Shown piece after piece: positions 2,131 to 33,487 of a stretch of DNA of 41,803 nucleotides. Numbering within the stretch: the stretch's first letter is position 1; each line of letters opens with the position of its first letter. The position numbers were made by a program, and so were the translations under genes. This DNA is from a virus: positions 1 to 41,803 of IMG/VR virus record IMGVR_UViG_3300001749_000008; one strand, 5' to 3'. The notes beneath the pieces were generated by a model. It saw only the letters and a list, made by a program, of their open reading frames with translations. It was not told the DNA's origin and did not search any database.

Positions 2131-2264
2131 CCAAAACAATCCCATTTCTCCGACGAATTATCTAGCTCGGGAGAAGTAGTAATTGTATCGTGGGTGTTTA
2201 ATATTTGTAAATCCATCAAAGAGTTTTCCTAAGACTTATCTTTGTTAAAACGGGATTGCCTTGG
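2131..2264 (-). other. Structured leader region with a long-range stem
   Basis: Between the nucleotidyltransferase and the long left-edge gene lie about 230 bases without an ORF. Positions 2131-2143 (CCAAAACAATCCC) can pair with 2252-2264 (GGGATTGCCTTGG): 11 of 13 bases pair, with one 2x2 internal loop. Inside, 2147-2152 and 2172-2177 (TTCTCC/GGAGAA) can form a second stem. The region would be the 5' leader of the late transcript. It may be a structured untranslated leader or a processed RNA; no known RNA family was recognised. Confidence 0.35.
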
Positions 2265-2278
2265 CCTTACCGCCGCAC

Positions 2279-2298
2279 AGAACTGCCTGTACAGTTCT
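2279..2298. repeat. Inverted repeat, 7-bp arms
   Basis: AGAACTG at 2279-2285 and CAGTTCT at 2292-2298 form a perfect 7-bp stem with a 6-nt loop. It lies at the stop codon of the nucleotidyltransferase gene and directly downstream of the TATAAATA late promoter on the minus strand. The hairpin would therefore sit at the 5' end of the late transcript. There is no U-run, so it is more likely a 5'-end stabilising hairpin than a terminator. Confidence 0.45.
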
Positions 2299-2908
2299 AT
2301 TTATAAAAGGAAAATTCTTGAGTCTTTAAACCTAAACCATGGCGTACTTCGTAGTATAATGCTTGAGCGAGTTTAATTTGGTTAGTTGGGCACATGTCGA
2401 TAAATGTGCCCATATCGTCACGTAAAGCTGCTTCTCGCATTTTAGTAGCGCTAGAGCCATGAACACCTAGACCACCCTCTGAACGAGTGCCCGCAGACTT
2501 TACTTGAATAGTATCAAAAGTAAAATCCTTGCCATTATAAAGATTAACAATCCGCGTATATTCTTTAACTCTATCTTCACCACAAATCATCGTCACGTGA
2601 TTATAACCATCATTGCATATATTTTTCAGATGCGCAATAAAGTCTGGACTTTTTTTGGTTGCGGCAACGAAGTTTATTTCTGGGAAAAATAGATTGAGAT
2701 ATTTCATCTTAGTGAAAATGTCGAGTGGATTTTTTTTCTTACTAAAAGTTTTAGACACGACGACCATATGATCAGCATCTGAATAATATGCCAAGTCGAG
2801 AATGTAATTTAAAACCTTCGCGTGACCTATTGTCGGCGGATTAAATCTACCAAAACTAAATATGATTTTCTTATCAGCTTTAACCACTAAACTTCTCAAA
2901 GTTTGCAT
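2297..2908 (-). CDS. HIGH-type nucleotidyltransferase (cytidylyltransferase-like)
   Basis: This 203-residue protein belongs to the cytidylyltransferase/NMN-adenylyltransferase superfamily, which couples NTP to a phosphorylated substrate. The sequence shows GRFNPPTIGHAKV near the N-terminus (the HxGH-like T-I-G-H signature) and SSATKMR near residue 160 (the ISSTxxR-type phosphate-binding motif). Homologues occur in many T4-like phages, usually annotated only as nucleotidyltransferases. I chose ATG at 2908; an in-frame TTG lies upstream at 2932. The start overlaps the upstream ligase-like gene by 29 nt, so the two are probably translationally coupled. The substrate is unknown: NAD metabolism or a cell-surface nucleotide sugar are both possible. 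Confidence 0.8.
   Translation of the reverse strand: MQTLRSLVVKADKKIIFSFGRFNPPTIGHAKVLNYILDLAYYSDADHMVVVSKTFSKKKNPLDIFTKMKYLNLFFPEINFVAATKKSPDFIAHLKNICNDGYNHVTMICGEDRVKEYTRIVNLYNGKDFTFDTIQVKSAGTRSEGGLGVHGSSATKMREAALRDDMGTFIDMCPTNQIKLAQALYYEVRHGLGLKTQEFSFYK
2298..2305 (-). promoter_or_regulatory. T4-type late promoter TATAAATA
   Basis: The minus strand reads TATAAATA exactly, the consensus -10 element used by the gp55/gp33/gp45 late machinery of T4-like phages. It overlaps the end of the nucleotidyltransferase ORF and points to the long gene at 2068. Transcription would begin about 6-10 nt downstream, at the 2279-2298 hairpin. Confidence 0.6.
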
Positions 2909-3860
2909 GACTAAAGATGTCTCTATTAACAAGTTTCACAAAGGTACCACCAGATCGCGTTACGTATCCTTCATGACCTACTTGGTCGTCGCCAATATAC
3001 ATTTCAAGATCACCGCAACTTGAGCGTTTGTCGAGATAGTCGATGAGACTCCGTTTGTATCTTAATAAGGCGAGGTAAACTCGTAATATCTCATAAGGAT
3101 AATTGTATTTATAAACAATGTCCCCTAGAGTTTGTTCATTTATTTCAATTCTATTTCTAACAAGACTATTAATTTCCTTTAACAGTACATTAATATTAGT
3201 TAATGAAGTTTTTTCATATGACTCATCTGAAATGTGACTAAAAGCTTCTTCCAAATCATAATATTCTTTTGGGGATATTAAACCATTGTTATCAAATCTC
3301 GTTATAGTTTTATCCGGGATATAATATCGCCCGCATAGAGTATTTTCATCACAATGGTGACCCATCGGGTGCGCATTACCGTGTCTATCATAGCGGGTAT
3401 GTATAGCTAGAACCATCTCATAATCTACTGAATGAGCGCGCTTCTTAAATTTGTACGTAATGTTATTAGGCGTGCGGGAGCCGTCTTCTATATCTTTATG
3501 AAACAGCAAATCTGCCTGGAAGATATTACTATCTTTGTGGAGACTGGGATAATTTTTATAAAACTCATTCATCGTAGGCCAAAGTTTCTCAAGTTTTTCT
3601 ACCAAACCAGGACTCCTAGCTCCATGATTTTTATGAATGTCTGATACGGAGTAATTAATTTTAGGTGTCTTATTAAAATAAGATTTAGAAGAAAGAAAGA
3701 ACTTTTGCTCGACTGGACATATGCCGAATACTAATGCTGGCATTCCGTCGTATTTGATAGAATACGATTCTTGTTCCAGCGCGACCAAAGAAGACTTGGC
3801 ACTCTGATAGTTCATTAATGCCAAGTCTTCTAAGTGGTGTATATGACTAACTTTCTGCAT
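2880..3860 (-). CDS. DUF6267-like phage protein with a KxDG ligase-type motif
   Basis: This is a 326-residue conserved phage protein, resembling what I know as DUF6267. At residue 36 it reads SIKYDGMPALVFG, matching motif I (KxDG) of covalent nucleotidyltransferases such as DNA and RNA ligases. Near the C-terminus GTFVKLVNRDIFS could be the Lys-containing motif V, and IFQADLLF lies between, where motif III or IV would be expected. I infer a ligase/capping-enzyme fold, but no activity is established. It overlaps the nucleotidyltransferase downstream, and the pair is consistently adjacent in spirit: both would handle nucleotidyl groups. Confidence 0.7.
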   Translation of the reverse strand: MQKVSHIHHLEDLALMNYQSAKSSLVALEQESYSIKYDGMPALVFGICPVEQKFFLSSKSYFNKTPKINYSVSDIHKNHGARSPGLVEKLEKLWPTMNEFYKNYPSLHKDSNIFQADLLFHKDIEDGSRTPNNITYKFKKRAHSVDYEMVLAIHTRYDRHGNAHPMGHHCDENTLCGRYYIPDKTITRFDNNGLISPKEYYDLEEAFSHISDESYEKTSLTNINVLLKEINSLVRNRIEINEQTLGDIVYKYNYPYEILRVYLALLRYKRSLIDYLDKRSSCGDLEMYIGDDQVGHEGYVTRSGGTFVKLVNRDIFSHANFEKFSG

Positions 3861-3868
3861 TGTATATC

Positions 3869-4138
3869 CTAACTGTTCTTGAGACGATCCAATGCTATGA
3901 CAACTTCTCCTACTGCAGCATTCACTTCAGCTCCCATAATTTTAGCCAAGCCGTTGCGGTCAGATAGGTGCATACTTTCTTCAAGTCTTTCAATATCGAC
4001 ACCTATACTAAGTTTTTCCTTTGACATCGGAACCCATTTTTGCCCATTAAACTCTTCGCCTTCAGAGTTTGTTAAACAATCTAAGACATTTTCCAAATGA
4101 TTAATTAAAGCTGTCTTAAGTTCCGCATCGATACTCAT
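3869..4138 (-). CDS. Hypothetical protein, 89 aa
   Basis: An acidic, mostly helical 89-residue protein with no recognised motif. It begins with ATG at 4138, which overlaps the stop of the 55-aa gene upstream as ATGA, and it ends 8 nt before the ligase-like gene. It is therefore part of the minus-strand operon that includes the helicase. A chaperone- or adaptor-like small protein is possible but unsupported. Confidence 0.7.
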   Translation of the reverse strand: MSIDAELKTALINHLENVLDCLTNSEGEEFNGQKWVPMSKEKLSIGVDIERLEESMHLSDRNGLAKIMGAEVNAAVGEVVIALDRLKNS

Positions 4139-4302
4139 GGTCGAACTCCTTGAAAAACAAACCTAGGGGTTCTACCGTTAAACCCACCGCCACCATTTAA
4201 AAACAACTTCATCGTGCGCAACTTCTTCATATTAGGACTTTTCATAAGAGTGTAATTGGTGTTAGTTTCGATTACAGCATTTTCGATGATTTTATATTTC
4301 AT
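4135..4302 (-). CDS. Hypothetical small basic protein, 55 aa
   Basis: A 55-residue ORF fills the gap between the helicase C-terminal part and the 89-aa gene. Its ATG (4302-4300) overlaps the helicase stop as ATGA, and its own TGA (4137-4135) overlaps the ATG of the next gene. Double stop/start overlap is strong evidence that it is translated. The protein is basic, with a glycine run (LNGGGGFNGRTP) in the C-terminal half. No family was recognised. Confidence 0.7.
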   Translation of the reverse strand: MKYKIIENAVIETNTNYTLMKSPNMKKLRTMKLFLNGGGGFNGRTPRFVFQGVRP

Positions 4303-4853
4303 TTAAAGTCCTTGATCTTGTGTTTAAATTCATCATTAGTTCTTTTACCCATCGGTGTATTATCCGTTGTTGATGGTTCACCGATTAGATTTTGGGCAGT
4401 TTCTTCCACGTCATACAATTTCATTCGTGATCGATCAATACCGATTGTAAAACGTCGGTTAGTTGTTGTATCACAGTATCGATTTTTCAGCTGTTTTACC
4501 ATAACCTGATTTACACTTTCAAGTTCTTCTGACGATATAAGTGCTAACATTAAATCAGCGGTTGCTGGAAGACCAAAACTGTTCTTGGTCAATACACCAT
4601 TACAATAGAATAGATTATCACCTGAAGTAGAAATATCCACAGTTTCCATTTCTCCCATCGGTTCAATCGCCATAATACGTTCATTGTAATCAATTTCAGA
4701 ATCAGACAACTTTTGTTTATCAAGCTTTTCAGTTTCAAGCTTATACAACAAGTCAGTTAGAACATCGACAGGCATATCTCCAACCGGGTATTCATTTAGC
4801 ACTAACCATTCTGCTTTCGCGAGACATTGCAAATATAGATTATCAGTTGGCAT
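4299..4853 (-). CDS. 41: Helicase gp41, part 3: C-intein of second split intein plus C-extein
   Basis: Residues 1-91 are the C-terminal half of a split intein, with block F at DISTSGDNLFYCNGV and block G ending LTKN. The remaining 93 residues are the helicase C-terminus, beginning SFGLPATADLM as in T4 gp41. Extein joining occurs at TDTSE/SFGLP. ATG at 4853 is preferred because GGAG lies 7 nt upstream; another in-frame ATG at 4868 has no such site. The start overlaps the stop of part 2 by 11 nt in another frame, with no endonuclease between. Two oddities: the C-intein has about 50 extra N-terminal residues compared with known gp41 C-inteins of about 40, and the usual penultimate His is Lys. 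Confidence 0.85.
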   Translation of the reverse strand: MPTDNLYLQCLAKAEWLVLNEYPVGDMPVDVLTDLLYKLETEKLDKQKLSDSEIDYNERIMAIEPMGEMETVDISTSGDNLFYCNGVLTKNSFGLPATADLMLALISSEELESVNQVMVKQLKNRYCDTTTNRRFTIGIDRSRMKLYDVEETAQNLIGEPSTTDNTPMGKRTNDEFKHKIKDFK

Positions 4854-6075
4854 TAGTTTTCTCCACATTTAAATAATCGCCAACACTTAGCATTCCACTT
4901 TCAATAGAAATTCTACCACGCTTAGTTGGAAACACATGTTCAGCCGAAACGATAATAGTTTTGCCTGACTCGAGCTTAATCTCATAACACTGTTTGAGCT
5001 TGGAATGATGCACCATGTGGACAGTCTTATAGCGATCATTAGATGTTATCTGGTCGCCGACTTTTACATCTTTAATTTTCTTCTTACTACCATCAATTAG
5101 AGTCACTTCTTCCTCGGCATAGATACACTCTGAGGTGTCAGTCAACTCAACATCAGAGTTGTTAAATCCAGAACGCGTAACTTGGGTAGCTGAAAAAATG
5201 GGAACATCATATTCAACAGCTAGACCACGAATTTCTTCAGCAATAGATTTAATGTATGTGTATGAGTTTACATTTGAACCAGTTTTAACACGAGACGATG
5301 CACAGATGTTGATATAATCAATATAGATCATATCTGGCACGAAACGCTTTTTGATCTTCAACTCATTCAAAAGGTGACGGAAGTGACCAGCATGAGCAGA
5401 AGATGTTGGATATTCTTTAACAATCAGTTTACCAAGAGTTCTGGATTTTACTTTCTCGATTTGCTTAGTGTAATAATCCTTTGGAGCATTTTCCAAATCT
5501 TGAATCTTGATGTTGAGTAGATTTGCATCGATACGTTCTGCAATCTTTTCTTCAGCCATTTCCATAGTGATATAAAGGACATTTTTATTATCCATCAAGT
5601 TGGCTGCAGCGAAGTGACACATTGCCAAACTTTTGCCAACACCTGTATTGTGAGATTCAATTCCAGCAGTATAATACCTATGATTGTCATGATTAACCTG
5701 AATATCTACAATTGGAATTTTTTGACCAGTCAAATTTACAGATACATTTGAAACGCCATCCTTAGTCATGATTTTAGGTAAAGAGTTTTCTGAAACCGTA
5801 TGACCACCCATCCGATTTTGCTTAAAGTGCATGCATTTTATTTCCAAATCACCTGCGGATATCCATTCACCTAAAGGAGTTTTGAATAAGTGATCAGAAT
5901 TACATCTGACAGTATAACCGTTTTCAGTTTCTACAAAATATTCTTCGTGCTCACCCTTATCTACAAAGGTATTAACACCTACCCAACCATCGGGCGAATC
6001 TACTTCAATTTCATATCCGTCTTTTAACAACTGATCAATATCACCAATTGGCATTTCTTTTTCAACCCAATTCAT
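4843..6075 (-). CDS. 41: Helicase gp41, part 2: C-intein 1, middle extein, N-intein 2
   Basis: This 410-residue ORF has three zones. Residues 1-143 are the C-terminal part of intein 1, with block B at GYTVRCNSDHLF, block F at VDIQVNHDNHRYY and the end IESHN. Residues 144-316 are the central RecA-like helicase core, opening with TGVGKS, which completes the Walker A loop, and including DMIYIDYINI (Walker B) and SATQVTR. Residues 317-410 are the N-terminal part of intein 2, starting Cys-317 (CIYAEEEVTL) with block B at TIIVSAEHVF. The hexameric helicase unwinds DNA at the fork with gp61 primase. Start ATG 6075 has a GAGG site 5 nt upstream. Two protein-splicing reactions would be needed to use this piece. 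Confidence 0.9.
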   Translation of the reverse strand: MNWVEKEMPIGDIDQLLKDGYEIEVDSPDGWVGVNTFVDKGEHEEYFVETENGYTVRCNSDHLFKTPLGEWISAGDLEIKCMHFKQNRMGGHTVSENSLPKIMTKDGVSNVSVNLTGQKIPIVDIQVNHDNHRYYTAGIESHNTGVGKSLAMCHFAAANLMDNKNVLYITMEMAEEKIAERIDANLLNIKIQDLENAPKDYYTKQIEKVKSRTLGKLIVKEYPTSSAHAGHFRHLLNELKIKKRFVPDMIYIDYINICASSRVKTGSNVNSYTYIKSIAEEIRGLAVEYDVPIFSATQVTRSGFNNSDVELTDTSECIYAEEEVTLIDGSKKKIKDVKVGDQITSNDRYKTVHMVHHSKLKQCYEIKLESGKTIIVSAEHVFPTKRGRISIESGMLSVGDYLNVEKTNAN

Positions 6076-6089
6076 AAAAACCTCAATTT

Positions 6090-6097
6090 AATAAATA
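6090..6097 (+). promoter_or_regulatory. Candidate late-type promoter box AATAAATA
   Basis: The plus strand has AATAAATA in the 48-bp gap before the HNH gene, one base off the TATAAATA late consensus. The same box with similar flanks (CTCAAT before, AATnCTA after) precedes the other isolated plus-strand gene, the muramidase, at 13550. An AGGAG ribosome binding site follows at 6112-6116. Confidence 0.35.
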
Positions 6098-6123
6098 ATT
6101 CTAACAGGAACAGGAGTCTATAC

Positions 6124-6771
6124 ATGAATATTTATAAGAAAATATACGATAAACTGTGCAAAAATGGAAAAAACTTAAAAGAGCATTATGCTCCTAAATC
6201 TAATATACATAAACACCACATCAGACCAAAGCATGCTGGCGGATTAGATAAAAATTCTAATTTTACCTATCTGACAGTAAGAGAGCACATCATAGCACAT
6301 TTTCTACTTTGGAAAATATACCAAAGCCCAAACGATTTAAGAGCTATGAAAATGTTAGGTGCAGAGCTTACACCTAAACAAAGATCAATTGTTGGTAAAT
6401 ATTGTCATGAAAATGGAATAGGATTTCATTCTAAAAAATATCAAAACAATAAACAGTGGCATTTAGATAGAGCTAAAAAATCAAGTGAAACCCAAAGGAA
6501 AAATAAGATTGGAGCTTTTTTTGATCCTGAGCTTAAAAAGGAAATAGCTTCTAAAGGTGGTAAAGAAGGCGTAAAAACCCAAAGGAAAAATAAGATTGGA
6601 GCTTTTTTTGATCCTGAGCTTAAAAAGGAAATAGCTTCTAAAGGTGGACAGGCGCTTAAAGGTTTAATATGCGTAACCAATGGAAAGCACAGGACAAGAA
6701 TTAAACCAGAGCTCCTAAACAAATATATCTCGGAAGGATATAAAAAAGGTTTTACACTTTACGATATCTGA
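6124..6771 (+). CDS. HNH homing endonuclease in the gp41 split-intein gap
   Basis: A free-standing homing endonuclease of 215 residues. The HNH core lies at residues 28-60: HKHHIRPKHAGG followed by NFTYLTVREHIIAH, a common phage HNH signature. The C-terminal half has two copies of a Lys-rich 29-residue unit and probably binds DNA. It starts at ATG 6124, 7 nt after AGGAG. The gene is on the strand opposite the helicase and its 3' end overlaps the helicase part 1 stop by 20 bp, so the last codons of the N-intein are antisense to the end of this gene. It presumably cuts intein-less helicase genes near the insertion site; the target is inferred from position only. Confidence 0.85.
   Translation: MNIYKKIYDKLCKNGKNLKEHYAPKSNIHKHHIRPKHAGGLDKNSNFTYLTVREHIIAHFLLWKIYQSPNDLRAMKMLGAELTPKQRSIVGKYCHENGIGFHSKKYQNNKQWHLDRAKKSSETQRKNKIGAFFDPELKKEIASKGGKEGVKTQRKNKIGAFFDPELKKEIASKGGQALKGLICVTNGKHRTRIKPELLNKYISEGYKKGFTLYDI
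6488..6647 (+). repeat. Perfect 73-bp direct repeat inside the HNH gene
   Basis: Positions 6488-6560 and 6575-6647 are identical over 73 bases, with a period of 87 bases (29 codons). The repeat keeps the reading frame and doubles a Lys-rich segment containing KIGAFFDPELKKEIASKGG. Perfect identity points to recent duplication. The unit resembles the short DNA-binding modules (NUMOD type) found at the C-termini of phage homing endonucleases. Confidence 0.9.
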
Positions 6772-7372
6772 CTTTTACCTTCGTTTCCGGGTGCACGCAC
6801 CCTGCGAGGATGATTGTTAGAGTTTTACGTGATATGCCGCCTTTAGTGATATCATTCAGTTTAGCGATATCGAAAGGTACTTTGACTTCATCAAGGTGGT
6901 AATAATCGAAACGCCTATCAGCATCTTCGAGAAAGTCGTGACCAATATTCGTGTCAAATGATACTGCAAGGGCATCACTTAACATCTGTGGGATTGCGCC
7001 CTTCGATAAGTCTTTCTCCTCATCCATGACTTTAATCGATTCCATAATAGCGTTATGGAGAGCTTTATCTTGACAAAACTTTTCAGTAGAGTCTGACAAC
7101 CATTGGATTTGCTGTTCGCACTTTTCGAGTCCATCTAACGTTTCAGTGCATTCTTTAAACACCGCTTCTTCAATAGGAATTTTCTCGAGATCGAGATACA
7201 GTGCTTCTTTTGTTGGTGATGCGCTATACTTAGCTATATATCGTTCGATTAATTTATAAACGACTTTGTCTGCATTCCTGTGAAAATACTCAGGCTTTAA
7301 GAATGCAATCGTCTTACGGACGAATTCATCATTATATAATAGATTTGATAATATAATCTTCTCAATATTCAT
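6752..7372 (-). CDS. 41: Helicase gp41, part 1: N-extein plus 15-residue N-intein
   Basis: Residues 1-191 are the N-terminal domain of the DnaB/gp41 helicase and the start of its RecA-like core, ending ...RKTLTIILAG. Residue 192 is Cys, the first residue of an intein (CVHPETKVKVRYRKV, block A), and the ORF stops after only 15 intein residues. The rest of this intein (143 residues) starts part 2, more than 680 bp downstream. The insertion lies inside the Walker A loop (LAG / TGVGKS), a conserved site favoured by inteins. Adding parts 1-3 gives 191+173+93 = 457 extein residues, close to the roughly 475 of T4 gp41, so a complete helicase can be assembled by trans-splicing. Confidence 0.9.
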   Translation of the reverse strand: MNIEKIILSNLLYNDEFVRKTIAFLKPEYFHRNADKVVYKLIERYIAKYSASPTKEALYLDLEKIPIEEAVFKECTETLDGLEKCEQQIQWLSDSTEKFCQDKALHNAIMESIKVMDEEKDLSKGAIPQMLSDALAVSFDTNIGHDFLEDADRRFDYYHLDEVKVPFDIAKLNDITKGGISRKTLTIILAGCVHPETKVKVRYRKV

Positions 7373-7394
7373 TCAATCTCCACTTACTAATGTT

Positions 7395-7423
7395 GAGAGC
7401 AGCTTTATTTTGATACTGCTCTC
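7395..7423. repeat. Hairpin, 8-bp perfect stem, before helicase part 1
   Basis: GAGAGCAG (7395-7402) and CTGCTCTC (7416-7423) form a perfect 8-bp stem with a 13-nt loop, between the 38-aa ORF and the helicase start at 7372. On the minus strand it is followed by mixed sequence, not a U-run. It may attenuate readthrough or control helicase translation. Confidence 0.5.
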
Positions 7424-7428
7424 GATTT

Positions 7429-7545
7429 CTACATATCTACAAATTTTCGCCAATGCGCTTTTTCTTCTGGAGTTTTTGCAGCATGCATCTTTTGACTATT
7501 TACCTGTATACCTCTATGTATACGAACTAAACCGAAATGTGACAT
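7429..7545 (-). CDS. Hypothetical small protein, 38 aa
   Basis: A 38-residue basic ORF starts at ATG 7545 with AGGAGA 8 nt upstream. It lies between the 82-aa gene and the helicase in the same direction. The C-terminal half reads KTPEEKAHWRKFVDM and looks helical. No family was recognised. The strong ribosome binding site and correct strand are the only support. Confidence 0.55.
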   Translation of the reverse strand: MSHFGLVRIHRGIQVNSQKMHAAKTPEEKAHWRKFVDM

Positions 7546-7587
7546 ATTATTCGTCTCCTATATTTGTTTATTTGCAGTGGGATGTCG

Positions 7588-7836
7588 TTATTCTTTAACA
7601 TACTCGAGAACTTCGACTTTTCGTGTAAATTCTATGGAAACTTTCACGATCCTATACCTCTCATCTATTCGCGTTAAATGTCTAAAAAAAGATGTGGCCG
7701 TCAATCGGTCTTCAATAATAAAAGCTTCATCAGCTGGCACCCATTCTGGAGAAATATATTTCTGCTGATATCTATCAGTAAAACCTTTTCTCTTTAGAAA
7801 ACAATTAGTTTGAGTATCTATTAGGGCGTAATACAT
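7588..7836 (-). CDS. Hypothetical protein, 82 aa
   Basis: A basic 82-residue protein directly after UvsX; its start codon overlaps the uvsX stop region, so it is translationally coupled. It contains alternating beta-type segments (YRIVKVSIEF, KVEVLEYVKE) but no motif I recognise. It may be a small partner of the recombination or helicase genes, an inference from position only. Confidence 0.65.
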   Translation of the reverse strand: MYYALIDTQTNCFLKRKGFTDRYQQKYISPEWVPADEAFIIEDRLTATSFFRHLTRIDERYRIVKVSIEFTRKVEVLEYVKE

Positions 7837-8903
7837 TATTCGTCTTCTATATTTTCAAATACTTCCGCGACTTCATCTTCTTCAACAAGTTTACCATGCG
7901 ATACTTGATATGTTTTCTTCACAAAATCTTGAAACTTTTCACATGCTATAATTGGTTCCCAAAATTCGGCGGTATTGGTCTCTTTTAACCTTAAGTTTTT
8001 TCCTATAATTTCACCTGTATCCATATTTACTCGCTGGTACCAACCCATTTTAGGCTTTATCACATGACCAGCTTCTAAAGCTAAATCTAAAAGACCAGAC
8101 CATTTAGAAATACCACCAGTAAACTTGACAGTAATAGGAATTTTAGATTTTTCTTTAACATATCTAGATTTTTCTACGTTAATAATGAAGTTATAACCAA
8201 GAAGTTCTTTTCCGTCTTTATCTTGCTGTCTACCGATAATAAACACATTGTCGGACGAATACATTCCTCCAGACCCGCCGGATACGATGGGCTTACTGAA
8301 CATTTCCATAGTCATGTAAACATGATTAACTACCAACATTGGAATATTTTTTAGATTTAAGTGTGGAGTTACCATTCTAAAGAATGACTTTAATTGTTTA
8401 GCTCTAGTCATATCAGCTACAGATTTTCCATCAATTGCATCATCTACTTCCTTTTTAGAAGCCATATTACCAATAGAATCTATAGCGATTACGAGCTTAT
8501 CTCCTCTAACAACGTCTTTTAGTTGCGTCATAACATCAAATTTCATTTGTTCAATGTCAGTCAGTGGTGTATGGACCACTCTTTCCATATCTAAACCTAC
8601 AGCATCAAAATACCCCTTTGGAGTACCAAATTCTGAATCATAAAACAAACATACTGCATCTGGATATTTGTCCATGTAGGCTTTTACTGAAATTAAGGTG
8701 AAAAGTGTTTTAAAGTGACGAGATGGGCCGGCCCACTGAGTAAGTCCCGGTGTTAAACCACCATGTAAGTCGCCAGAATACGCGACATTAATAGCAGGAA
8801 TAGATGTCGTAATCATATCTTTAGCATTAAAGAATTCAGATTCAGATAGAACTGCAGTTTCTTTAATTGTTGAATTTTTTTTAATTTTATCCAATAGTGA
8901 CAT
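7836..8903 (-). CDS. uvsX: UvsX RecA-like recombinase
   Basis: A 355-residue RecA/UvsX family strand-exchange protein that drives recombination-dependent replication in T4-like phages. The Walker A equivalent is GPSRHFKT at residues 59-66, matching the GPSxxxKs form of phage UvsX. Walker B is LVIAIDSIGN at 137-146, and SGGSGGMYSSDNVFIIGRQQ is the loop/DNA-binding region near 205-225. T4 UvsX is 391 residues, so this copy is slightly shorter but has no internal gap. It lies upstream of the helicase in one transcript, matching their joint role at D-loops. Unlike gp41 and gp43, it is uninterrupted. Confidence 0.95.
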   Translation of the reverse strand: MSLLDKIKKNSTIKETAVLSESEFFNAKDMITTSIPAINVAYSGDLHGGLTPGLTQWAGPSRHFKTLFTLISVKAYMDKYPDAVCLFYDSEFGTPKGYFDAVGLDMERVVHTPLTDIEQMKFDVMTQLKDVVRGDKLVIAIDSIGNMASKKEVDDAIDGKSVADMTRAKQLKSFFRMVTPHLNLKNIPMLVVNHVYMTMEMFSKPIVSGGSGGMYSSDNVFIIGRQQDKDGKELLGYNFIINVEKSRYVKEKSKIPITVKFTGGISKWSGLLDLALEAGHVIKPKMGWYQRVNMDTGEIIGKNLRLKETNTAEFWEPIIACEKFQDFVKKTYQVSHGKLVEEDEVAEVFENIEDE

Positions 8904-8907
8904 GGTA

Positions 8908-9126
8908 TTATCCTTTTAAAATTGTATTTAGTTTATCAATGAATTCGTCAATTTTTTCTGCTCGACCAGGCCACTCTATGATTGGCTTCGTTTCGGCATC
9001 TTTTCTTAAATTGTTAAGTAATGGCATAACGGCGTCGTAGATTTGTTGAGCTTTGTCTGTTTTTACAAGTGTCTTCTCGGCCTCGCCAGCAGTGTAAGCG
9101 CTAAAGCCAAAATCAAAATCATCCAT
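8908..9126 (-). CDS. Small acidic protein next to UvsX, 72 aa
   Basis: The likely start is ATG 9126 (MDDFDFGFSAYTAGEAEK), because it overlaps the TGA of the upstream gene and matches the MxDFDFGFxA start of small uvsX-adjacent proteins in other T4-like phages as I remember them. The longer in-frame extension upstream reads through the previous gene. The C-terminal half has WPGRAEKIDEFIDKL. Its constant position suggests a recombination-associated role, but none is known. Confidence 0.75.
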   Translation of the reverse strand: MDDFDFGFSAYTAGEAEKTLVKTDKAQQIYDAVMPLLNNLRKDAETKPIIEWPGRAEKIDEFIDKLNTILKG

Positions 9127-9478
9127 TCCGTGGTTTCCTTTTATGCGGTGGTTCTTTTTCCCATAAATTTCCACTATTAATTATGTCTTGACGATGTTCA
9201 TCTAATGTTTTAGGTTTAAATTCTTTTTCCATCTCTTTAAAATACAGAGGTTTGAGATCAATTAGAAAAGTTCTGAGGCGGTCAGCCAAGTCAATATCAT
9301 TTTCAGATCCGTCTACATTATCGAGCAGTTCAATCAATCTATTTACCGTAAACTCATCTAGAGGTAATTGTTTAGAAATTCTATTATAATAGTATGCTTG
9401 CTCCCAAATGTGCATTCGTTGGGCGCTCTGTTCAGCACAAGTTTCATAATTTGTATAATATTCATTTAAATTGATCAT
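9119..9478 (-). CDS. Hypothetical protein, 119 aa
   Basis: ATG 9478 overlaps the gp43 part 2 stop as ATGA, so this ORF is coupled to the polymerase; a TTG 9 nt upstream is less likely. The protein is acidic and helical, with EFTVNRLIELLDNVDG in the middle and a basic tail. No family was recognised. It sits between polymerase and uvsX, in a block of replication genes. Confidence 0.7.
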   Translation of the reverse strand: MINLNEYYTNYETCAEQSAQRMHIWEQAYYYNRISKQLPLDEFTVNRLIELLDNVDGSENDIDLADRLRTFLIDLKPLYFKEMEKEFKPKTLDEHRQDIINSGNLWEKEPPHKRKPRNG

Positions 9479-10410
9479 GAGAACCAATCCTCCAACGTTG
9501 ATACCTTTTCAGCATTCCATCCGATAGCTTTCAGTATAGATTGCAGGGGATCAATAAACGACTTTTCAAACTGTAAATCGTAATCAATGTATCTCTCTAT
9601 CTCGAACTCAGGCGGCAGATTGTCTGGACATGCTACAACGTTCGAAAAGTATGGATTTGGCTGTTTAAGTTGAGCATACCGAATTTTATCGCCGCTGCCT
9701 ATCTGCTCATATTTATCACCAATATCGTGTTCTTTTAGCAATCTATTAAATAAAATTGAACCTTTTACATGGATGGGAGTACCGCTTACGAATCCTTCTT
9801 TCGAAGCCCATTTATCTATATCCGAGATACCTCGGGGAAATGCGATTTGTTCGAAGTCGAACTCTGTAAATTCATCTCTAAATTTCTCAACATATTCTTG
9901 AAGATCACTTTCCTCTTTCAACATGATAATTTTCAGGGCATTTTTAATTGCATTTCTACAGACCGCAGGAGTAGATGATTTGATCGCTTCGATGCCAGAC
10001 ATTTTAAGTTTAGGCTCTGAGTATTCGACTCCTTCTTGGTTGAATACGTTGAGAATGTATCTCTTCTTCGCAGTCCAAATTCCCTTGTTGGCTATGCATT
10101 CTCTCTTCATTTGCATTTTCTGTTGAGATGCCTGCATCATTTCTGCGAGTTCTTCGTAATAACGATCGATAGCTGGCTCAAGCTTCTTTTCACAGTATTG
10201 ATCAAGAATTCTAGATATTTCTTGATCGGATTTGCCTTCAGGAATTACCTTCTTGACAAGTTCATCTAGAGTAATGTAAACTGAATTATGCACGCATATA
10301 TCATTAGCAAAAAAGTTATGATTATCTTCAACTTCTATATCATAAACATAATCTTCAATCTCACCTAAATCTTCTACTGTATAGTTTAAATCAAATTTTA
10401 GTTCTGACAT
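9475..10410 (-). CDS. 43: DNA polymerase gp43, part 2: C-intein plus C-extein
   Basis: Residues 1-42 are a canonical C-terminal split intein: block F at YVYDIEVEDNHNFFANDI and block G ending CVHN. Ser-43 is the +1 extein residue, and SVYITLDELV continues family B polymerase directly after the DTD catalytic motif. The next 269 residues hold the KxY-type motif (AKKRYILNVFN) and the thumb, ending in a short clamp-binding-like tail LEDWFS. With part 1, the spliced enzyme would be 562+269 = 831 residues (T4 gp43 is 898). The start overlaps the end of the endonuclease upstream by 20 nt in another frame. Confidence 0.93.
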   Translation of the reverse strand: MSELKFDLNYTVEDLGEIEDYVYDIEVEDNHNFFANDICVHNSVYITLDELVKKVIPEGKSDQEISRILDQYCEKKLEPAIDRYYEELAEMMQASQQKMQMKRECIANKGIWTAKKRYILNVFNQEGVEYSEPKLKMSGIEAIKSSTPAVCRNAIKNALKIIMLKEESDLQEYVEKFRDEFTEFDFEQIAFPRGISDIDKWASKEGFVSGTPIHVKGSILFNRLLKEHDIGDKYEQIGSGDKIRYAQLKQPNPYFSNVVACPDNLPPEFEIERYIDYDLQFEKSFIDPLQSILKAIGWNAEKVSTLEDWFS

Positions 10411-11458
10411 GTTTTAAAATTCTTTCAATGGTTTTATTAGGATCTTTTGTATAATCATATTCCCAAATGGTAATGCATTCAATGTTACGCTTTTCTAATA
10501 TTAGTTTTAATTTATAATCGTCTTCTTCCCATCTCTCTTTAGCCTTCACTTTAGTCTGACCCCGCCCCCTTAAGCATTCATTCGGATGATATAATTTTGG
10601 ATTTCCATGATAATGATCTCCATGATATTCTATTGCAAAATTTAGTTCTGGACAAACGAAATCGTATTTTTTATAAGTGTTGTTATCTAAAATGCCATAC
10701 TCACCGCCATTTTCCGCATAATAGCATTTCTTGTGTGTAAATGGTTCTGACCTTATTAGTTTAGAAAATAACCTCTGTGATGCTTTTGAGTATGGCGATT
10801 TTGATTTTCTTACATATTCTTCATATTTAATTTTACCATCATCGCCATATTTTCTGATGAAATTTTCTAAAGTTAATGCCTTTTTAGAATTAATTTCTAA
10901 ATATTTGGATTTTCCTAAGTACTCTTCTGTATTTGTATATGCTTGCTTTTTACAATATTCATCGAATCTTCTTGTACCTTCATATTCGCCGTATTTTGAA
11001 ACTAAATTCTCTAATGTAACTGCTCTAGATTTATTAAATTCATCAAATTTAGTCTTTGTCCATCCGTGTTTTTTATTTTTATACTCAAAGGAATTTGTAT
11101 ATGCTTGCTTTTTACAATATTCATCGAATCTTCTTGTACCTTCATCTTCGCCGTATTTTGAAACTAAATTCTCTAAAGTTATGGCCTTTAGAGAATTTAG
11201 TTTATCATACTTTTGTTTTCCTAATTCTTCACCGTACATTAAAATGCATTTTTCTAGAGATACAACTGATCCTAAGTGTAAACAAGTCTTAACAATATGA
11301 TACAAATCATCTATATTTGGATTTCGGTATTTAATAATATTTTCAACCGAAGATTTGTGTATGTTATTTTCTAAATATTCAATCTGGCTGCATGTTAAAC
11401 TGCATTCAATGTTTACTTCTGAACCGTATTTCTTATATTTTCTTATTATTTTCTTCAT
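10391..11458 (-). CDS. Vsr-like homing endonuclease in the gp43 split-intein gap
   Basis: A 355-residue endonuclease gene lies exactly between the two halves of the polymerase intein, same strand. Its C-terminal 120 residues resemble the Vsr/EDxHD nuclease fold: YDFVCPELNFAIEYHGDHYHG, a conserved W-E-E-D helix and ITIWEYDY. The N-terminal two-thirds contain three or more repeats of a module like ENLVSKYGExEGTRRFDEYCKK, probably DNA-binding. This layout matches the published 'fractured gene' arrangement, where a free-standing Vsr-like endonuclease separates split-intein halves. It overlaps part 1 by 26 nt and part 2 by 20 nt, so all three ORFs are probably translated from one message. Confidence 0.88.
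   Translation of the reverse strand: MKKIIRKYKKYGSEVNIECSLTCSQIEYLENNIHKSSVENIIKYRNPNIDDLYHIVKTCLHLGSVVSLEKCILMYGEELGKQKYDKLNSLKAITLENLVSKYGEDEGTRRFDEYCKKQAYTNSFEYKNKKHGWTKTKFDEFNKSRAVTLENLVSKYGEYEGTRRFDEYCKKQAYTNTEEYLGKSKYLEINSKKALTLENFIRKYGDDGKIKYEEYVRKSKSPYSKASQRLFSKLIRSEPFTHKKCYYAENGGEYGILDNNTYKKYDFVCPELNFAIEYHGDHYHGNPKLYHPNECLRGRGQTKVKAKERWEEDDYKLKLILEKRNIECITIWEYDYTKDPNKTIERILKHVRTKI
10931..11176 (-). repeat. 84-bp direct repeat in the Vsr-like endonuclease gene
   Basis: Positions 10931-11014 and 11093-11176 match at 83 of 84 bases, with a period of 162 bases (54 codons). It encodes the repeated module containing SKYGExEGTRRFDEYCKKQA. A third, more diverged copy of the module precedes the nuclease domain. 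Near identity at DNA level means a recent in-frame duplication, possibly changing target-site length. Confidence 0.85.
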
Positions 11459-13535
11459 CTGTTATCATTGAATCCTTATCTGTTCCTATTATATTTATAA
11501 TACTGTGAATTTTTGGATTCAGTTTATGTGGTTTTATAGATGATATTTTTTTTGTGTTTACGTTCCGTGCTATAATACTATGATCTTCTGTGACAACAAC
11601 AGACTTCCCGTCATTGTTCGTAATCCTAAACATCCTCTTTTTTACTTTATGTTTCATAACATAATTAATACTTTTTGTTTCTAATTTTCCTTCCTTAGAA
11701 ACTGAAGGCGTAGTGTCATTTTCACACAATTTAACATAATTGTGATTAAATTTATCGCACTTTAAGAAAATGTCTTCTTTGAGATTATAATAATCTTCAA
11801 TTGTCATATCTACACCGTTTACATTTATAACAGACTCACCAACGACTGAATCCGTATCAGACGCGATCACATAATCAGCGTTTTCAGTACCAAGAAGTTT
11901 GTTGAAATATTCATTCAAGCGGTCTGCAATCCATCTAATTGAAAGCTGGCCAGACATTGTAATAGCTTCAGCATGATTAATATCATACCAACGGAAATAC
12001 CTGTTGCCGAGAGCACCATAAGCTGAGTTGAGCTGAATCTTTTTAGCCATTTGAAGATTATTGAGCTTAGATATTATTTTCTCTAATTCCCACCTCTCTT
12101 TCTTATCAGAAGTGATCTGAAGCTTCTGTTGAGCGCTGATCATTTGCTTCTTGTAGACTTTACGATCATTATACATTTTCTGCATAAGAGCTGCAAGAAA
12201 ACCTTGTTCGCTCTTGTCGTAAAAGCACCCATTGGCGCAATATGAATATTGGTCGTCTAGGTTCACCTTTCTTTCTAAAAGATCATCAATCGACGGGAAC
12301 CCTGACATCTTACCTCTGAATTTCTCAGGTGAGATATTATATTGCATGATAAGGTGTGGATATAGTGAATTCAAGTCAAATGATATCACCCACTTGTGTA
12401 GACCGGTTTGAGGTGCCTTAACATAACCACCAACTAGTGGAGCATTAAATCCTGGTTCATTTTTCATTGGGATCACGTAACCCTGATCCATCAGATAATT
12501 GTGGATCATGATGTCCCATTGACGAACTGAAGCTAAAGTATCTTGATAGTTTACTTTCGCGTCATACGCTAGAGCAAAAACTAGATCAATGAGTTTAAGT
12601 TTTTCTTCTAATTTGAAAACCAAATCGACATCGTGAATATTGTAGGCTACGTACTTTTGAGGATCTTTTGCATACAAGTCATCAAGGTTGCCATATTCAG
12701 AATAATCAATCTTCTTTTCACCAAGCTCCTCTTGACATATGAAGTCAAGTCTATAACTTTCACGTGGTGTATATATGAATTTCTTATAAAGCTGCATGTA
12801 ATCTAATACAGCGATACCTTCAATTCTAAATGAAGGGCAAGGTTTACCTTTGATATAAACTTCATACTGGTTCAATTTGCCCCAAGGGCTAAGTTCTTTA
12901 GCGAATTTCTCACCAAGAACACGAATAATTCTATTCACTAAATATGGAATATCATAAAATTCACAGTTCCAACCCGTAATTACATCGGGATCGAGATACT
13001 TCCAGATTTCTATAATCTTGATTAGCATCTCTCTTTCACTTTTACAACGATAGTAAACTACGTTTTCATTAGTTTCTTCAAAGTCTTTCACACCAAACAC
13101 GTAACGCATATTACCTTTTCTTAAGGTAACACAAGTGATTTCATTTGGTACTGTTGTAACTGAGGTTGCGATGTCCACTCTTCGAGTCATCGCGTTTTCG
13201 ATATCTATACCTACAACCGAGATATTCTCAGGTTCATAGTTTATAGTGCCTTGGAAATTATCATAGATAAACGCATACTGAAAGGTTGAAAGACCGTAGA
13301 TGGAGAAACCGCCCACATCTTCATATTGTTTAATAAATTGCCGTGCATCGTACATCGTGTTGAAATTTTTCTTTTCAACATACTTACCATCAAGCGTTTT
13401 GAATTGTGTTTCTGTTGAAGCTGGTACGAATAAGTATGGGGAATATGAATAGATTTCTTTATGGGGTTTTCCTGCCTTTACACCTTTAGCATATATTCTT
13501 CCCTTGTTAAGGAAGATGTTTGTGTAAAAATCCAT
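11433..13535 (-). CDS. 43: DNA polymerase gp43, part 1: N-extein plus N-intein
   Basis: A family B replicative polymerase with 3'-5' exonuclease. Exo I is GIDIEN (D111), Exo II is GWNCEFYD (N190-D195) and Exo III is YNIHDVD (Y298-D302). Polymerase motif A is DLNSLYP (D387), motif B is KIQLNSAYGALGN (about 499-511) and motif C is ASDTDS. After D562 the intein begins at Ser-563 (SVVGESVINVNG), which is the pol-c insertion site within the catalytic DTDS. The N-intein runs 138 residues with block B SVVVTEDHSI, then stops. Without trans-splicing to part 2 the enzyme would lack its palm C-terminus and thumb. No other defect is seen. Confidence 0.95.
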   Translation of the reverse strand: MDFYTNIFLNKGRIYAKGVKAGKPHKEIYSYSPYLFVPASTETQFKTLDGKYVEKKNFNTMYDARQFIKQYEDVGGFSIYGLSTFQYAFIYDNFQGTINYEPENISVVGIDIENAMTRRVDIATSVTTVPNEITCVTLRKGNMRYVFGVKDFEETNENVVYYRCKSEREMLIKIIEIWKYLDPDVITGWNCEFYDIPYLVNRIIRVLGEKFAKELSPWGKLNQYEVYIKGKPCPSFRIEGIAVLDYMQLYKKFIYTPRESYRLDFICQEELGEKKIDYSEYGNLDDLYAKDPQKYVAYNIHDVDLVFKLEEKLKLIDLVFALAYDAKVNYQDTLASVRQWDIMIHNYLMDQGYVIPMKNEPGFNAPLVGGYVKAPQTGLHKWVISFDLNSLYPHLIMQYNISPEKFRGKMSGFPSIDDLLERKVNLDDQYSYCANGCFYDKSEQGFLAALMQKMYNDRKVYKKQMISAQQKLQITSDKKERWELEKIISKLNNLQMAKKIQLNSAYGALGNRYFRWYDINHAEAITMSGQLSIRWIADRLNEYFNKLLGTENADYVIASDTDSVVGESVINVNGVDMTIEDYYNLKEDIFLKCDKFNHNYVKLCENDTTPSVSKEGKLETKSINYVMKHKVKKRMFRITNNDGKSVVVTEDHSIIARNVNTKKISSIKPHKLNPKIHSIINIIGTDKDSMITDEENNKKI

Positions 13536-13549
13536 GAATGTTCCTCAAT

Positions 13550-13557
13550 AATAAATA
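13550..13557 (+). promoter_or_regulatory. Candidate late-type promoter box AATAAATA
   Basis: This box lies in the 67-bp divergent gap between gp43 and the muramidase, pointing toward the muramidase. It has the same sequence context as the box before the HNH gene at 6090. A separate AT-rich TATAAT-like stretch follows at about 13563. A muramidase would be expected to be a late gene. GGAGAAG just before 13603 is the ribosome binding site. Confidence 0.4.
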
Positions 13558-13602
13558 ATCTAGTATAATATATATACGCCAAACTCAACATTGGAGAAGT
13601 AA

Positions 13603-14145
13603 ATGGCTGTTAATTTTCGTAAGCATAGTGATGTTTTTGACAAATCACTCGCTGTAATCTTGTATCACGAAGGTGGATATGTTAACCATCCTAAAGATCC
13701 AGGTGGCGCAACCAATATGGGTGTCACAAAAAGGGTCTATGAAAAGTGGATCGGAAAGAAGGTAAAAGATCTTGACATGAGTCTAATCACTCAGAAAGAT
13801 GTTACCCCAATCTATAAGAAAAACTATTGGGACAAGATTAAAGGTGACAAACTTCCCGCAGGTCTAAGCCTTGCAGTTTTTGATTTTGCTGTAAATGCTG
13901 GTGTTAGTCGCGCATCTAAATATCTTCAACAATTAGTTGGAGTAAAGCAAGATGGCGCAATCGGACGTAAAACTCTTAAAGCAGTAGATGAATATGTAAG
14001 CACATATTCAAAAAATGTTGCGGTTAAGAAGTATTCACAATTGAGACTCAATTTCTACAAGCGCCTAAAAACATTCCCTACATTTGGTAGAGGATGGTTA
14101 AGAAGAGTTGATAGTGTAGAACAGTCGGCTTTAAAGATACTCTAA
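13603..14145 (+). CDS. Endolysin: GH108-type N-acetylmuramidase
   Basis: A 180-residue peptidoglycan hydrolase expected to cut the glycan backbone and lyse the host. The catalytic segment near residues 19-35 reads LYHEGGYVNHPKDPGGATN, the E-G-G-Y signature of glycosyl hydrolase family 108. The C-terminal part (VGVKQDGAIGRKTLKAV) is the peptidoglycan-binding PG_binding_3-type helix bundle. There is no signal peptide, so it needs a holin to reach the wall; none is evident nearby. It is one of only three plus-strand genes here and is followed by a strong terminator, so it forms its own transcription unit. Confidence 0.92.
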   Translation: MAVNFRKHSDVFDKSLAVILYHEGGYVNHPKDPGGATNMGVTKRVYEKWIGKKVKDLDMSLITQKDVTPIYKKNYWDKIKGDKLPAGLSLAVFDFAVNAGVSRASKYLQQLVGVKQDGAIGRKTLKAVDEYVSTYSKNVAVKKYSQLRLNFYKRLKTFPTFGRGWLRRVDSVEQSALKIL

Positions 14146-14178
14146 TCAGAAGGGGGAGTTTTAACTCTCCCCTTCTGA
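14146..14178. terminator. Bidirectional terminator hairpin
   Basis: TCAGAAGGGGGAGTT at 14146-14160 pairs with 14163-14178 (one bulge, 2-nt loop), giving a stem of about 15 bp directly after the muramidase stop. It is followed by a moderately T-rich stretch on the plus strand. It separates the convergent muramidase and Hsp20 genes and can stop transcription from both sides. Confidence 0.8.
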
Positions 14179-14183
14179 ATATC

Positions 14184-14618
14184 TTATTTAATTTTTACTT
14201 TCTTCTTTTTGTCTTTCTTCTTAATATAATTAAGAGAAACAATCAGAAGACCGTTTTCAAAATTCGCTTGAATAGATTCATGATCGATATTGTCATTTAG
14301 ACGGAATTTTTTGGCGAATGCTCTTTTAGCAATTCCTTTATGGACATAGTTGGTTTCAGTATCCGGTTCAGATTTATTAGCCTTAACCACAAGCATGTCC
14401 CCATCAATTTCTACGTTGACTTCGTCTTTAGTAAATCCTGCTACAGCAATCTCGACAGAGATACCATTCTCAGTTTTAACGACGTTATGAGGTGGGTATG
14501 TTTCGAAATTGCCTTGTGATAAAAACTTATCAAAGTTCTTAAACAATACATCTGCACCTAGAAGTACTTTATCCATACTATCGATGTTTTTCTCAAAATC
14601 TTTAAAATTAAATGCCAT
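14184..14618 (-). CDS. Small heat-shock protein (Hsp20/alpha-crystallin)
   Basis: A 144-residue holdase chaperone. The alpha-crystallin domain spans about residues 44-130: GISVEIAVAGFTKDEVNVEIDGDMLVVKA is the first sheet and FENGLLIVSLNY the A-x-x-x-x-G-L-L-x-V/I signature near the end, followed by a Lys-rich tail. Hsp20 genes are common in T4-like phages, where a role in folding virion proteins is suspected. It is the last minus-strand gene before the muramidase. The hairpin and late-like box upstream (14647-14686) may give it its own transcript. Confidence 0.92.
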   Translation of the reverse strand: MAFNFKDFEKNIDSMDKVLLGADVLFKNFDKFLSQGNFETYPPHNVVKTENGISVEIAVAGFTKDEVNVEIDGDMLVVKANKSEPDTETNYVHKGIAKRAFAKKFRLNDNIDHESIQANFENGLLIVSLNYIKKKDKKKKVKIK

Positions 14619-29783: not shown

Positions 29784-30155
29784 TTAACCGCCTCTATTCA
29801 TCTTTTGCTTAATGTTTTCGAGATCACTTTCGTTCAATATCAACAATGCTGATCTAGCTTTTTCGATGTTATAGTTATAATATTCCATCACAAGCTTTAG
29901 ATTTTTATCGTCTGTCTTCTTCGCCCATTTACTAAACCTCTTACGAGGTCTGATTGAATTGATTAAATAATCATATTTGATATCGTCATCTAGATCGCTT
30001 AATAGATTGACTTCATTGGCGTACATTATAGTGTCAGGGAAATAGCTCAGGCCTCGATTGATCATAAAGCTGTTGTAATCTGACTTAAAATTGATTTCGT
30101 CTTTATTGTCCTTTTTGTTAAAGGTGATATTATTCAGAATATTCCACAAACTCAT
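29784..30155 (-). CDS. 62: Clamp loader small subunit gp62
   Basis: A 123-residue homologue of T4 gp62, which forms the 4:1 clamp loader with gp44 and opens gp45. Matching parts are DYNSFMINRGLSYFPDTIMYANEVN (T4: DYSKFMVENALSQFPE) and YLINSIRPRKRFSKWAKK (T4: YLMAAVPRGKRYGKWAK). It is shorter than T4 gp62 (187), as in many distant T4-like phages. It lies five genes downstream of gp44 instead of adjacent, because accessory genes occupy the space. A partial second copy follows it. Confidence 0.85.
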   Translation of the reverse strand: MSLWNILNNITFNKKDNKDEINFKSDYNSFMINRGLSYFPDTIMYANEVNLLSDLDDDIKYDYLINSIRPRKRFSKWAKKTDDKNLKLVMEYYNYNIEKARSALLILNESDLENIKQKMNRGG

Positions 30156-30624
30156 TACTTACTACTCTCTCAATCATATCAAAAAATTCTTCTTTGGTGT
30201 CAGTTAATTCCATACTGTATTTATCACAAAGTATCTGAACATTGCCCTTTCTCCAAAAACCATCTGGACAACATACTATTACAAAGCAGTTCATCATAGA
30301 AATTAAACCTAGTTCCATAAGTGTGATAGGACTTTTAGTTTCAGGGTCAAAATATACTACAACCAAGTTTGAATTTTCTAGACCATTTAACTCCCACGAA
30401 ACCTGTTCATTAAAATTCGTGTTCAAAGTATCTTGAACCCAAGAGGAGTCCCAATCATCTCTACGTGGATTTAGAATAGTCCAGTCGTCTTTACCCTTTT
30501 CAGTAATAAGGCTGGTAACAGTTTCCTGCCACTCTTCAGCAACGCCCATTTCAATGCTTCCTGCTAGAAATACAGTTTTACCAGATTTAGAATATTCACC
30601 GGGCGCTTTTACTTCCATAGTCAT
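30130..30624 (-). CDS. Nucleoside 2-deoxyribosyltransferase-like protein A
   Basis: A 164-residue protein with the nucleoside deoxyribosyltransferase fold pattern: VFLAGSIEMG at the start, WTILNPRRDDWD, NEQVSWELNGLENSNLVVVYFDPETKSP and ITLMELGL. These enzymes swap bases on deoxynucleosides or hydrolyse them; related phage proteins may remake nucleotide pools. The catalytic Glu in MELGL is retained. It is followed by gp62 and preceded by a diverged paralogue. Confidence 0.8.
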   Translation of the reverse strand: MTMEVKAPGEYSKSGKTVFLAGSIEMGVAEEWQETVTSLITEKGKDDWTILNPRRDDWDSSWVQDTLNTNFNEQVSWELNGLENSNLVVVYFDPETKSPITLMELGLISMMNCFVIVCCPDGFWRKGNVQILCDKYSMELTDTKEEFFDMIERVVSNEFVEYSE

Positions 30625-31064
30625 ATCAATCTTCCTTTAATTGCTAGGGACGCTTTCTCTAAACTGTCAAAAATGGGTACATTGAATTCAATGCAAGCCG
30701 ATTCAATTAAAGCCTTTTTCCAAAACCCAGCATCCATACATATATATGTGTCTTTATACTTGCAGAGATCAGCTAAATCCAACAACGAAACTGGACTCTC
30801 AGTGTCTTCGGAAAAGTGTAATAATACAATATCAGCATCTTGGAGTGCTTCGTTTACCCACCTAACGCTATTGACAAACGCTTCAGATGTTTCATCTGCG
30901 ACTTCTTTAATGTTGTCTCCCTTAGGATTAAGTAAAGCGACATCATAATCATTAAAGAGCTTAACAAATTCGTCTCTCCAATCTCTTTCTACTGTCAATG
31001 ACCCACCTAAAAATACAGACTTGACATCAGTCGGATACGGATTTGGCGCTTTTACTTCCAGCAT
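30621..31064 (-). CDS. Nucleoside 2-deoxyribosyltransferase-like protein B (paralogue)
   Basis: A 147-residue tandem paralogue of protein A: LEVKAPNPYP matches MEVKAPGEYS, SVFLGGSL matches VFLAGSI, and ADIVLLHFSEDTESPVSLLDLADL matches the SPITLMELGL part. The catalytic Glu of ELG is replaced (LLDLADL), so the enzyme may be inactive or altered. The start overlaps the Zn-finger gene by 38 nt in another frame. Confidence 0.75.
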   Translation of the reverse strand: MLEVKAPNPYPTDVKSVFLGGSLTVERDWRDEFVKLFNDYDVALLNPKGDNIKEVADETSEAFVNSVRWVNEALQDADIVLLHFSEDTESPVSLLDLADLCKYKDTYICMDAGFWKKALIESACIEFNVPIFDSLEKASLAIKGRLI

Positions 31065-32821: not shown

Positions 32822-33487
32822 TCAGCTTCCGTACGAAGAAGATGCCTCGACCGCGATATAATATTCTACAAGTGGTCCTTTAAAGTGTGAAAGACCTTTT
32901 GATGAGATTTCGACTTCATAATCACCTGGCAAGACTTTTAAGTGTTCCGCTTTAATAATCATTTGGAACTTGTCAGATGTTTCTGACTTACCAACCGCAA
33001 CACTATATCTGTCGGCAGATGGGTTTTTACTATCGATAGCATCAAGAGTAATATTTTCTCCGTCGCCGACGATGGCCATTTCTGGTAGGCTTAGAACGTT
33101 CAATGCTTTCATAAAATCATTAAGCACTTCAGCTTCAAGCTTGAAAGAGATTTCCGGTGCTGGAAATTTAATGTCCTTTTGTGGAGGAACAATAATCGTA
33201 TTTGGATCTGCGAAGGTGTAATTGATCCTGCGACGACCTTCCTTAAGTGTAAGGTTCTTGTCTCCAATCTCCACATCTGCATTTTCGAAGAGTGAAAGAG
33301 TAGACAAGAACCTTGATAAATCGTAAATTGCAAAGCTTGATGCAATATTGTGTTCAATAGTCGCTTTTGCCAAAATGGTTTTATTGGCTGAGATTGTTGA
33401 AAGGGTATTACCAGCTTGGAACATGATTCCATGGTTAATGCCCGAATAGTTTTTCAAAATCTGTAGTGTTACATCATCAAATTTCAT
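32822..33487 (-). CDS. 45: Sliding clamp gp45
   Basis: A 221-residue trimeric processivity clamp (T4 gp45: 228). It begins MKFDDVTLQILKNYSGIN, as is typical for these clamps. The start ATG 33487 overlaps the stop of the endonuclease upstream (ATGA), and the end of that endonuclease gene supplies a GGA-type ribosome binding site. gp45 also activates late promoters of the TATAAATA type. The gene is complete, but its translation now seems coupled to a selfish gene. Confidence 0.93.
   Translation of the reverse strand: MKFDDVTLQILKNYSGINHGIMFQAGNTLSTISANKTILAKATIEHNIASSFAIYDLSRFLSTLSLFENADVEIGDKNLTLKEGRRRINYTFADPNTIIVPPQKDIKFPAPEISFKLEAEVLNDFMKALNVLSLPEMAIVGDGENITLDAIDSKNPSADRYSVAVGKSETSDKFQMIIKAEHLKVLPGDYEVEISSKGLSHFKGPLVEYYIAVEASSSYGS

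Follow-up and report, generated by a model that had tools for sequence, protein, structure and literature searches.

A T4-type replicative helicase encoded in three pieces, with a different split intein predicted at each break, in an IMG/VR virus record

The DNA analysed here, which we call the window, is a stretch of 41,803 nucleotides (nt) comprising positions 1 to 41,803 of IMG/VR virus record IMGVR_UViG_3300001749_000008, and the element under study is its gene for gp41, the T4-type replicative helicase. The gene lies on the minus strand as three open reading frames (ORFs), N (6752-7372), M (4843-6075) and C (4299-4868), where an initial annotation made from the sequence had placed them. 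ORF N consists of an extein of 191 amino acids (aa) followed by a 15-aa N-terminal intein fragment (IntN1). ORF M combines the 143-aa C-terminal fragment of that intein (IntC1), a 173-aa extein and the 94-aa N-terminal fragment of another (IntN2), and so does carry the C-half of one intein and the N-half of a second, as had been proposed. ORF C holds the matching C-terminal fragment (IntC2) and a 93-aa extein. The annotated extein sum, 191 + 173 + 93 = 457 aa, is borne out as that of a full helicase: once the inteins are removed, the joined exteins are homologous over their full length to T4 gp41 (PDB 8dtp), with residues 5-426 aligned and both junctions free of gaps (E 4e-99).

The first break (site 1, LAG/TGVGKS) lies inside Walker A and the second (site 2) at TSE/SFGLP, and the inteins at the two sites are indeed different, intein 1 matching VidaL and intein 2 gp41-1. 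Conserved intein blocks are present at each break as annotated, except that IntN1 has block A only and its block B sits in ORF M. All three ORFs are closed by stops and show no frame damage, and a sequencing error is unlikely because independent contigs show the identical three-piece layout. For ORF C, the more likely start is the ATG at 4853 behind a GGAG motif, which gives a protein of 184 aa and an 11-nt overlap with M. Features of the locus, and of a DNA polymerase gene discussed below, are collected in Table 1.

Table 1. Features of the gp41 and DNA polymerase loci in the window (a slash marks a predicted splice junction)
Feature	Position	Strand	Support
gp41 N-extein, 191 aa, ends ...TIILAG	6800..7372	-	phrog_19 DnaB-like helicase, E 8e-39
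IntN1, 15 aa (CVHPETKVKVRYRKV) and stop, block A only	6752..6799	-	aligns to start of contiguous L010 intein
HNH homing-endonuclease gene within intein 1, antisense, 215 aa	6124..6771	+	phrog_655, E 1e-19
AATAAATA, differing by one base from the T4-type late box TATAAATA, before HNH gene	6090..6097	+	
IntC1, 143 aa, blocks B, F and G, ends ...SHN/T	5647..6075	-	VidaL-like
gp41 middle extein, 173 aa, TGVGKS...DTSE	5128..5646	-	PF03796, E 4e-13; phrog_19, E 1e-52
IntN2, 94 aa and stop, blocks A and B	4843..5127	-	TIGR01445 intein_Nterm above cut-off; 6qaz, E 9e-12
IntC2 N-terminal extension, predicted two-helix hairpin	4704..4853	-	AlphaFold2 helices 6-19 and 29-48
IntC2 core, blocks F and G, ends ...LTKN/S	4581..4703	-	gp41-1 IntC match, E 0.0017
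gp41 C-extein, 93 aa and stop, SFGLP...	4299..4580	-	phrog_19, E 8e-15; 8dtp, E 2e-10
DNA polymerase N part	11433..13535	-	phrog_262; TIGR01445 above cut-off
Polymerase IntN, 138 aa, Ser1, starts SVVGES after ...SDTD	11433-11849	-	
Endonuclease-like free-standing ORF, 355 aa, between polymerase parts	10391..11458	-	phrog_22677 (family of unknown function), E 6e-55
DNA polymerase C part	9475..10410	-	phrog_262; TIGR01443 intein_Cterm above cut-off
Polymerase IntC, 42 aa, ...CVHN/SVYITLDEL	10285-10410	-	

Intein 1 is VidaL-like in both sequence and fold. Its contiguous homologue at the related locus L010 matches VidaL (6vgv) in phmmer at E 2e-12, and a Foldseek search with the AlphaFold2 (AF2) model of gp41-M found VidaL at E 9e-9. 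At L009 and L010 the same intein is uninterrupted, with helicase and intein in one open frame, and in an alignment the 15-aa and 143-aa pieces of the window tile the contiguous 140-aa intein of L010 without loss, the very short IntN1 and IntC1 together completing one Hint domain split after the second beta strand. Cys1, the block B His, the terminal HN and a +1 nucleophile all fall into place in this alignment.

These features recur among relatives. An alignment query gave 212 of them, and patterns for IntC1 alone plus TGVGKS gave none. The census loci were collected with intein queries and grouped into clusters by 95% identity in the middle extein; the counts below therefore describe inteins rather than frequency among phages, and the clusters are related sequences rather than independent events. 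Site 1 is split in 55 clusters and contiguous in 6. The N fragment is 14-19 aa long in 54 of the 55 split clusters, the SHN end with Thr+1 is present in 66/66 clusters, and block B retains its N..H in 65/66.

An HNH gene on the plus strand lies in the interval between N and M and overlaps the end of gp41-N by 20 nt, so that split intein 1 has an endonuclease gene in its gap; L084 has a homologue, 63% identical, that is placed and oriented alike. The gap of the split clusters contains an antisense HNH gene in 48 cases, a sense HNH gene in 2, an EDxHD-like gene in 1 and nothing recognised in 4. EDxHD is here a label given by motif reading, not by a curated model. A perfect TATAAATA late box precedes the antisense HNH gene in 43 of the 48 clusters; read in the opposite sense, the figure is 2 of 48, and shuffled sequences give about 1.5%. 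The gene would for this reason be expected to be expressed late from its own promoter. The window itself has the AATAAATA variant before the gene and no perfect box. The HNH protein of the window also contains an almost exact tandem repeat, TQRKNKIGAFFDPELKKEIASKGG twice over.

Intein 2 is homologous to gp41-1 in both halves (Table 1) and is split at the canonical position. Its penultimate residue, however, is Lys (TKN/S) rather than His, and because of this residue we term it gp41-1-like and not gp41-1. Nor does it occupy the gp41-1 insertion site (TRSGY/SSS), since TSE/S lies 12 residues downstream. Lys is penultimate in 45/45 site-2 clusters, with Ser+1 in 44/44, and His is penultimate in 7 of 8 clusters at neighbouring insertion sites. 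IntC2 carries about 50 extra N-terminal residues, and site-2 IntC fragments are 86-113 aa long in all 42 clusters measured. The AF2 model places two helices in the extension (block predicted local distance difference test, pLDDT, 64-88); this hairpin matches nothing in Pfam or PDB, and it may help the intein halves associate. No endonuclease gene separates the overlapping M and C at site 2 of the window; an EDxHD-like gene is found there in 29/45 clusters.

Double-split gp41 genes in three pieces also occur in L084/L085, the L004 group, L272 and L295, giving at least four alleles in IMG/VR, and L374 and the truncated L325 were classed likewise. In L272 the second intein is gp41-1 itself, with 36/36 residues of the C-fragment identical to 6qaz, and it occupies gp41-1's own site, not TSE/S. 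A contiguous site-1 intein accompanies a split second intein in L187, L300 and L387. Separately, in L300, L296, L297 and L292, Walker A was seen to hold a contiguous VidaL-like intein, with a split intein of the gp41-1 type further downstream. Site 1 is empty in L086-L088, near-identical to L084, and in L011, whose occupied counterpart L004 is more distant. Site 1 thus exists in intact, empty and split form. L084 and L086 show 12 differences in the 123 nt that follow site 1 but a single one in the 405 nt beyond, a pattern that fits co-conversion without proving it. Between L004 and L011, the site-2 cassette has a synonymous divergence (dS) of 0.14-0.25, while that of the exteins is 0.9-2.9, a contrast that a recent transfer would be expected to leave.

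The residue at +1 of empty alleles varies. L086-L088 have Ile where the occupied sister has Thr, and other empty alleles have Pro or Val; alleles with any of these three are possibly resistant sites, and Pro at +1 has been discussed as resistance for an archaeal MCM intein (PMC10643990). Thr at +1 was dropped as a mark of occupied alleles, most empty ones also having Thr. A match of phage Sf-CH11 into IntC1 was spurious, its helicase being continuous. Two further fractured loci were observed: L002 3401-6381 of Shigella phage ESh36, a T4 relative whose GenBank record is marked UNVERIFIED, has gp41 fractured at site 2 with an endonuclease-like ORF, and L012 1-4404 has a fractured uvsX and a fractured gp41 side by side.

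Taken together, the sequences make it highly probable that gp41 is produced as three precursor proteins joined by two protein trans-splicing reactions. IntN1 on N would pair with IntC1 on M, using Cys1 and Thr+1 as nucleophiles, to rebuild the Walker A loop LAG-TGVGKS, and IntN2 on M would pair with IntC2 on C, using Cys1 and Ser+1, to join DTSE to SFGLP; the product of both joinings would be a normal 457-aa hexameric helicase. Splicing is very likely because the splice residues are invariant and because the ratio of non-synonymous to synonymous substitution (dN/dS) is 0.05-0.25 for the intein halves and associated endonucleases, in pairs with unsaturated synonymous sites; it is low in the exteins of related pairs too. 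ORF M has the order IntC-extein-IntN, and matching intein halves would close its extein into a circle; correct assembly therefore probably requires unrelated, differently split inteins. Proteins are cyclised by means of just this arrangement, so selection would be expected to act on mutual non-reactivity. Inteins 1 and 2 likely do not cross-react, because they are about 27% identical and are split at different positions, the one after the second beta strand and the other canonically. Homing-endonuclease genes that inserted into contiguous mini-inteins probably caused the breaks, the antisense HNH gene being the putative breaker at site 1 and an EDxHD-like gene, lost from or never present in the window lineage, that at site 2. 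The joining order and the homing activity are likewise what we infer. More tentatively, and with chances that we would put somewhat below even, three-piece proteins made through two non-reacting split inteins could be a recurrent phage architecture, in which non-reaction would come from a different break site in each intein, made by a different endonuclease gene, and the IntC2 hairpin would be an added association module.

Three other explanations were weighed. The gp41 pieces might be stable subunits that assemble without covalent splicing, as is known, according to Friedrich et al. 2007 as cited in PMC3322345, for a ribonucleotide reductase into whose gene a homing endonuclease gene has inserted; yet every splice residue of both inteins is kept in dozens of relatives, the intein halves are under purifying selection, and Walker A would otherwise bear 15 and 143 foreign residues, all of which makes such an assembly improbable. 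After splicing, by contrast, the junctions are predicted to read ...LAGTGVGK... and ...DTSESFGLPATADLM.... Still harder to credit is a decaying pseudogene or assembly artefact with another, intact helicase at work: although the window is a 41.8-kb fragment and a second helicase could be elsewhere, the layout is repeated in independent contigs, dN/dS is low in exteins and inteins, and the frames are undamaged. Removal of the N/M break from RNA as a group I or II intron has a negligible chance and was rejected when no Rfam intron family reached E 1 over 2200-14200, for although group I introns with homing endonucleases occur in T4-like phages (PMC2988022), the pieces carry recognisable intein blocks and together cover a contiguous intein, and the endonuclease gene is antisense.

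Assembly by two trans-splicing reactions remains the preferred explanation, and several points weigh against it. We infer the splicing of gp41 from sequence features, and also the evolutionary direction from contiguous to split. Between the window and L084, synonymous sites are saturated in several segments, which makes those ratios unusable. The AF2 models are moderate overall (mean pLDDT 60), with gp41-M modelled better in IntC1 than elsewhere. Intein 2 has an unusual penultimate Lys, though one that is constant in its family. Finally, IntN1, at 15 aa, is among the shortest natural fragments of its kind; natural IntN fragments of 15-16 aa are already known (PMC10189870, PMC13014065).

The DNA polymerase B gene of the window (9475-13535) is also split, by a Ser1 intein at ...SDTD/SVYITL. 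The free-standing ORF in its gap matches the PF18741 REase model weakly (E 0.006, below cut-off) and is Vsr/EDxHD-like by motif reading only; the polymerase thus has an endonuclease-like gene in its gap on weaker annotation than the HNH gene at site 1. Pairwise identities among the three split inteins are 22-27%. This polymerase intein, the HNH gene and the evolutionary states of site 1 are additions to the initial annotation. Elsewhere in the window are three large homing-endonuclease-like ORFs of phrog_3339 (33484-34911, 36816-38423 and 40063-41691), one of which overlaps the start of a DNA methyltransferase ORF, and two adjacent ORFs of phrog_30579 (30130-30624 and 30621-31064), likely a tandem duplication.

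Among known systems, VidaL (6vgv/6vgw) resembles intein 1 in its Hint fold, Cys1, IntN of about 16 aa and split after strand beta-2 (PMC13014065). The window intein, however, sits in the Walker A of a helicase and is remote from VidaL; the sequence in the VidaL crystal has a far nearer relative in the UvsX-type IntC of jumbo phage MIJ3 (E 1.7e-35). The UvsX gene of MIJ3 and its relatives is like site 1 of gp41: a P-loop ATPase is interrupted by an intein of the VidaL type whose split comes after 17 residues, and the gap holds an endonuclease-like gene. The UvsX gene differs in being a recombinase gene in two pieces with the endonuclease in sense orientation. The MIJ3 locus is L098 766-3772, and Salicola phage SCTP-2 (L100) has a contiguous intein at the same site. 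For intein 2, gp41-1 (6qaz) is the best PDB match and shares the host gene family, canonical split, Cys1 and Ser+1; besides the insertion site and the Lys in place of His, intein 2 is set apart by an IntC of about 90 aa rather than about 37. Dassa et al. 2009 (NAR 37:2560) reportedly described phage replication genes that split inteins break in two, a free-standing endonuclease gene lying in the gap. Compared with those loci, the window gene is in three pieces, with the site-1 endonuclease antisense and site 2 without one.

Two unrelated inteins in one replicative helicase, one of them in the P-loop, are also found in DnaB of Mycobacterium smegmatis (PMC6195587), but those are contiguous and splice in cis, whereas the gp41 inteins of the window are split and predicted to act in trans. 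The initial annotation had called the arrangement unusual. That word claims too much: the Walker A P-loop is a classic intein site (PMC5050341), double inteins as such are known in cis, and the double split itself recurs in phage alleles. The two-split, three-piece state appears to be new, even though inteins 1 and 2 belong to known families. A natural protein built from three pieces by two split inteins is undescribed in the searchable literature, which leaves out most subscription papers.

The gp41 gene of this virus offers natural split-intein pairs that must work together without cross-reaction, and they would serve well as parts when proteins are assembled from several fragments. In the intein 2 family, one catalytic residue is unusual and an additional domain is predicted, and L272 indicates that the widely used gp41-1 intein can reside in a helicase with a second break. 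Because a single site occurs empty, contiguous and split, and an antisense endonuclease gene is present as well, the origin of ultra-short split inteins becomes directly testable.

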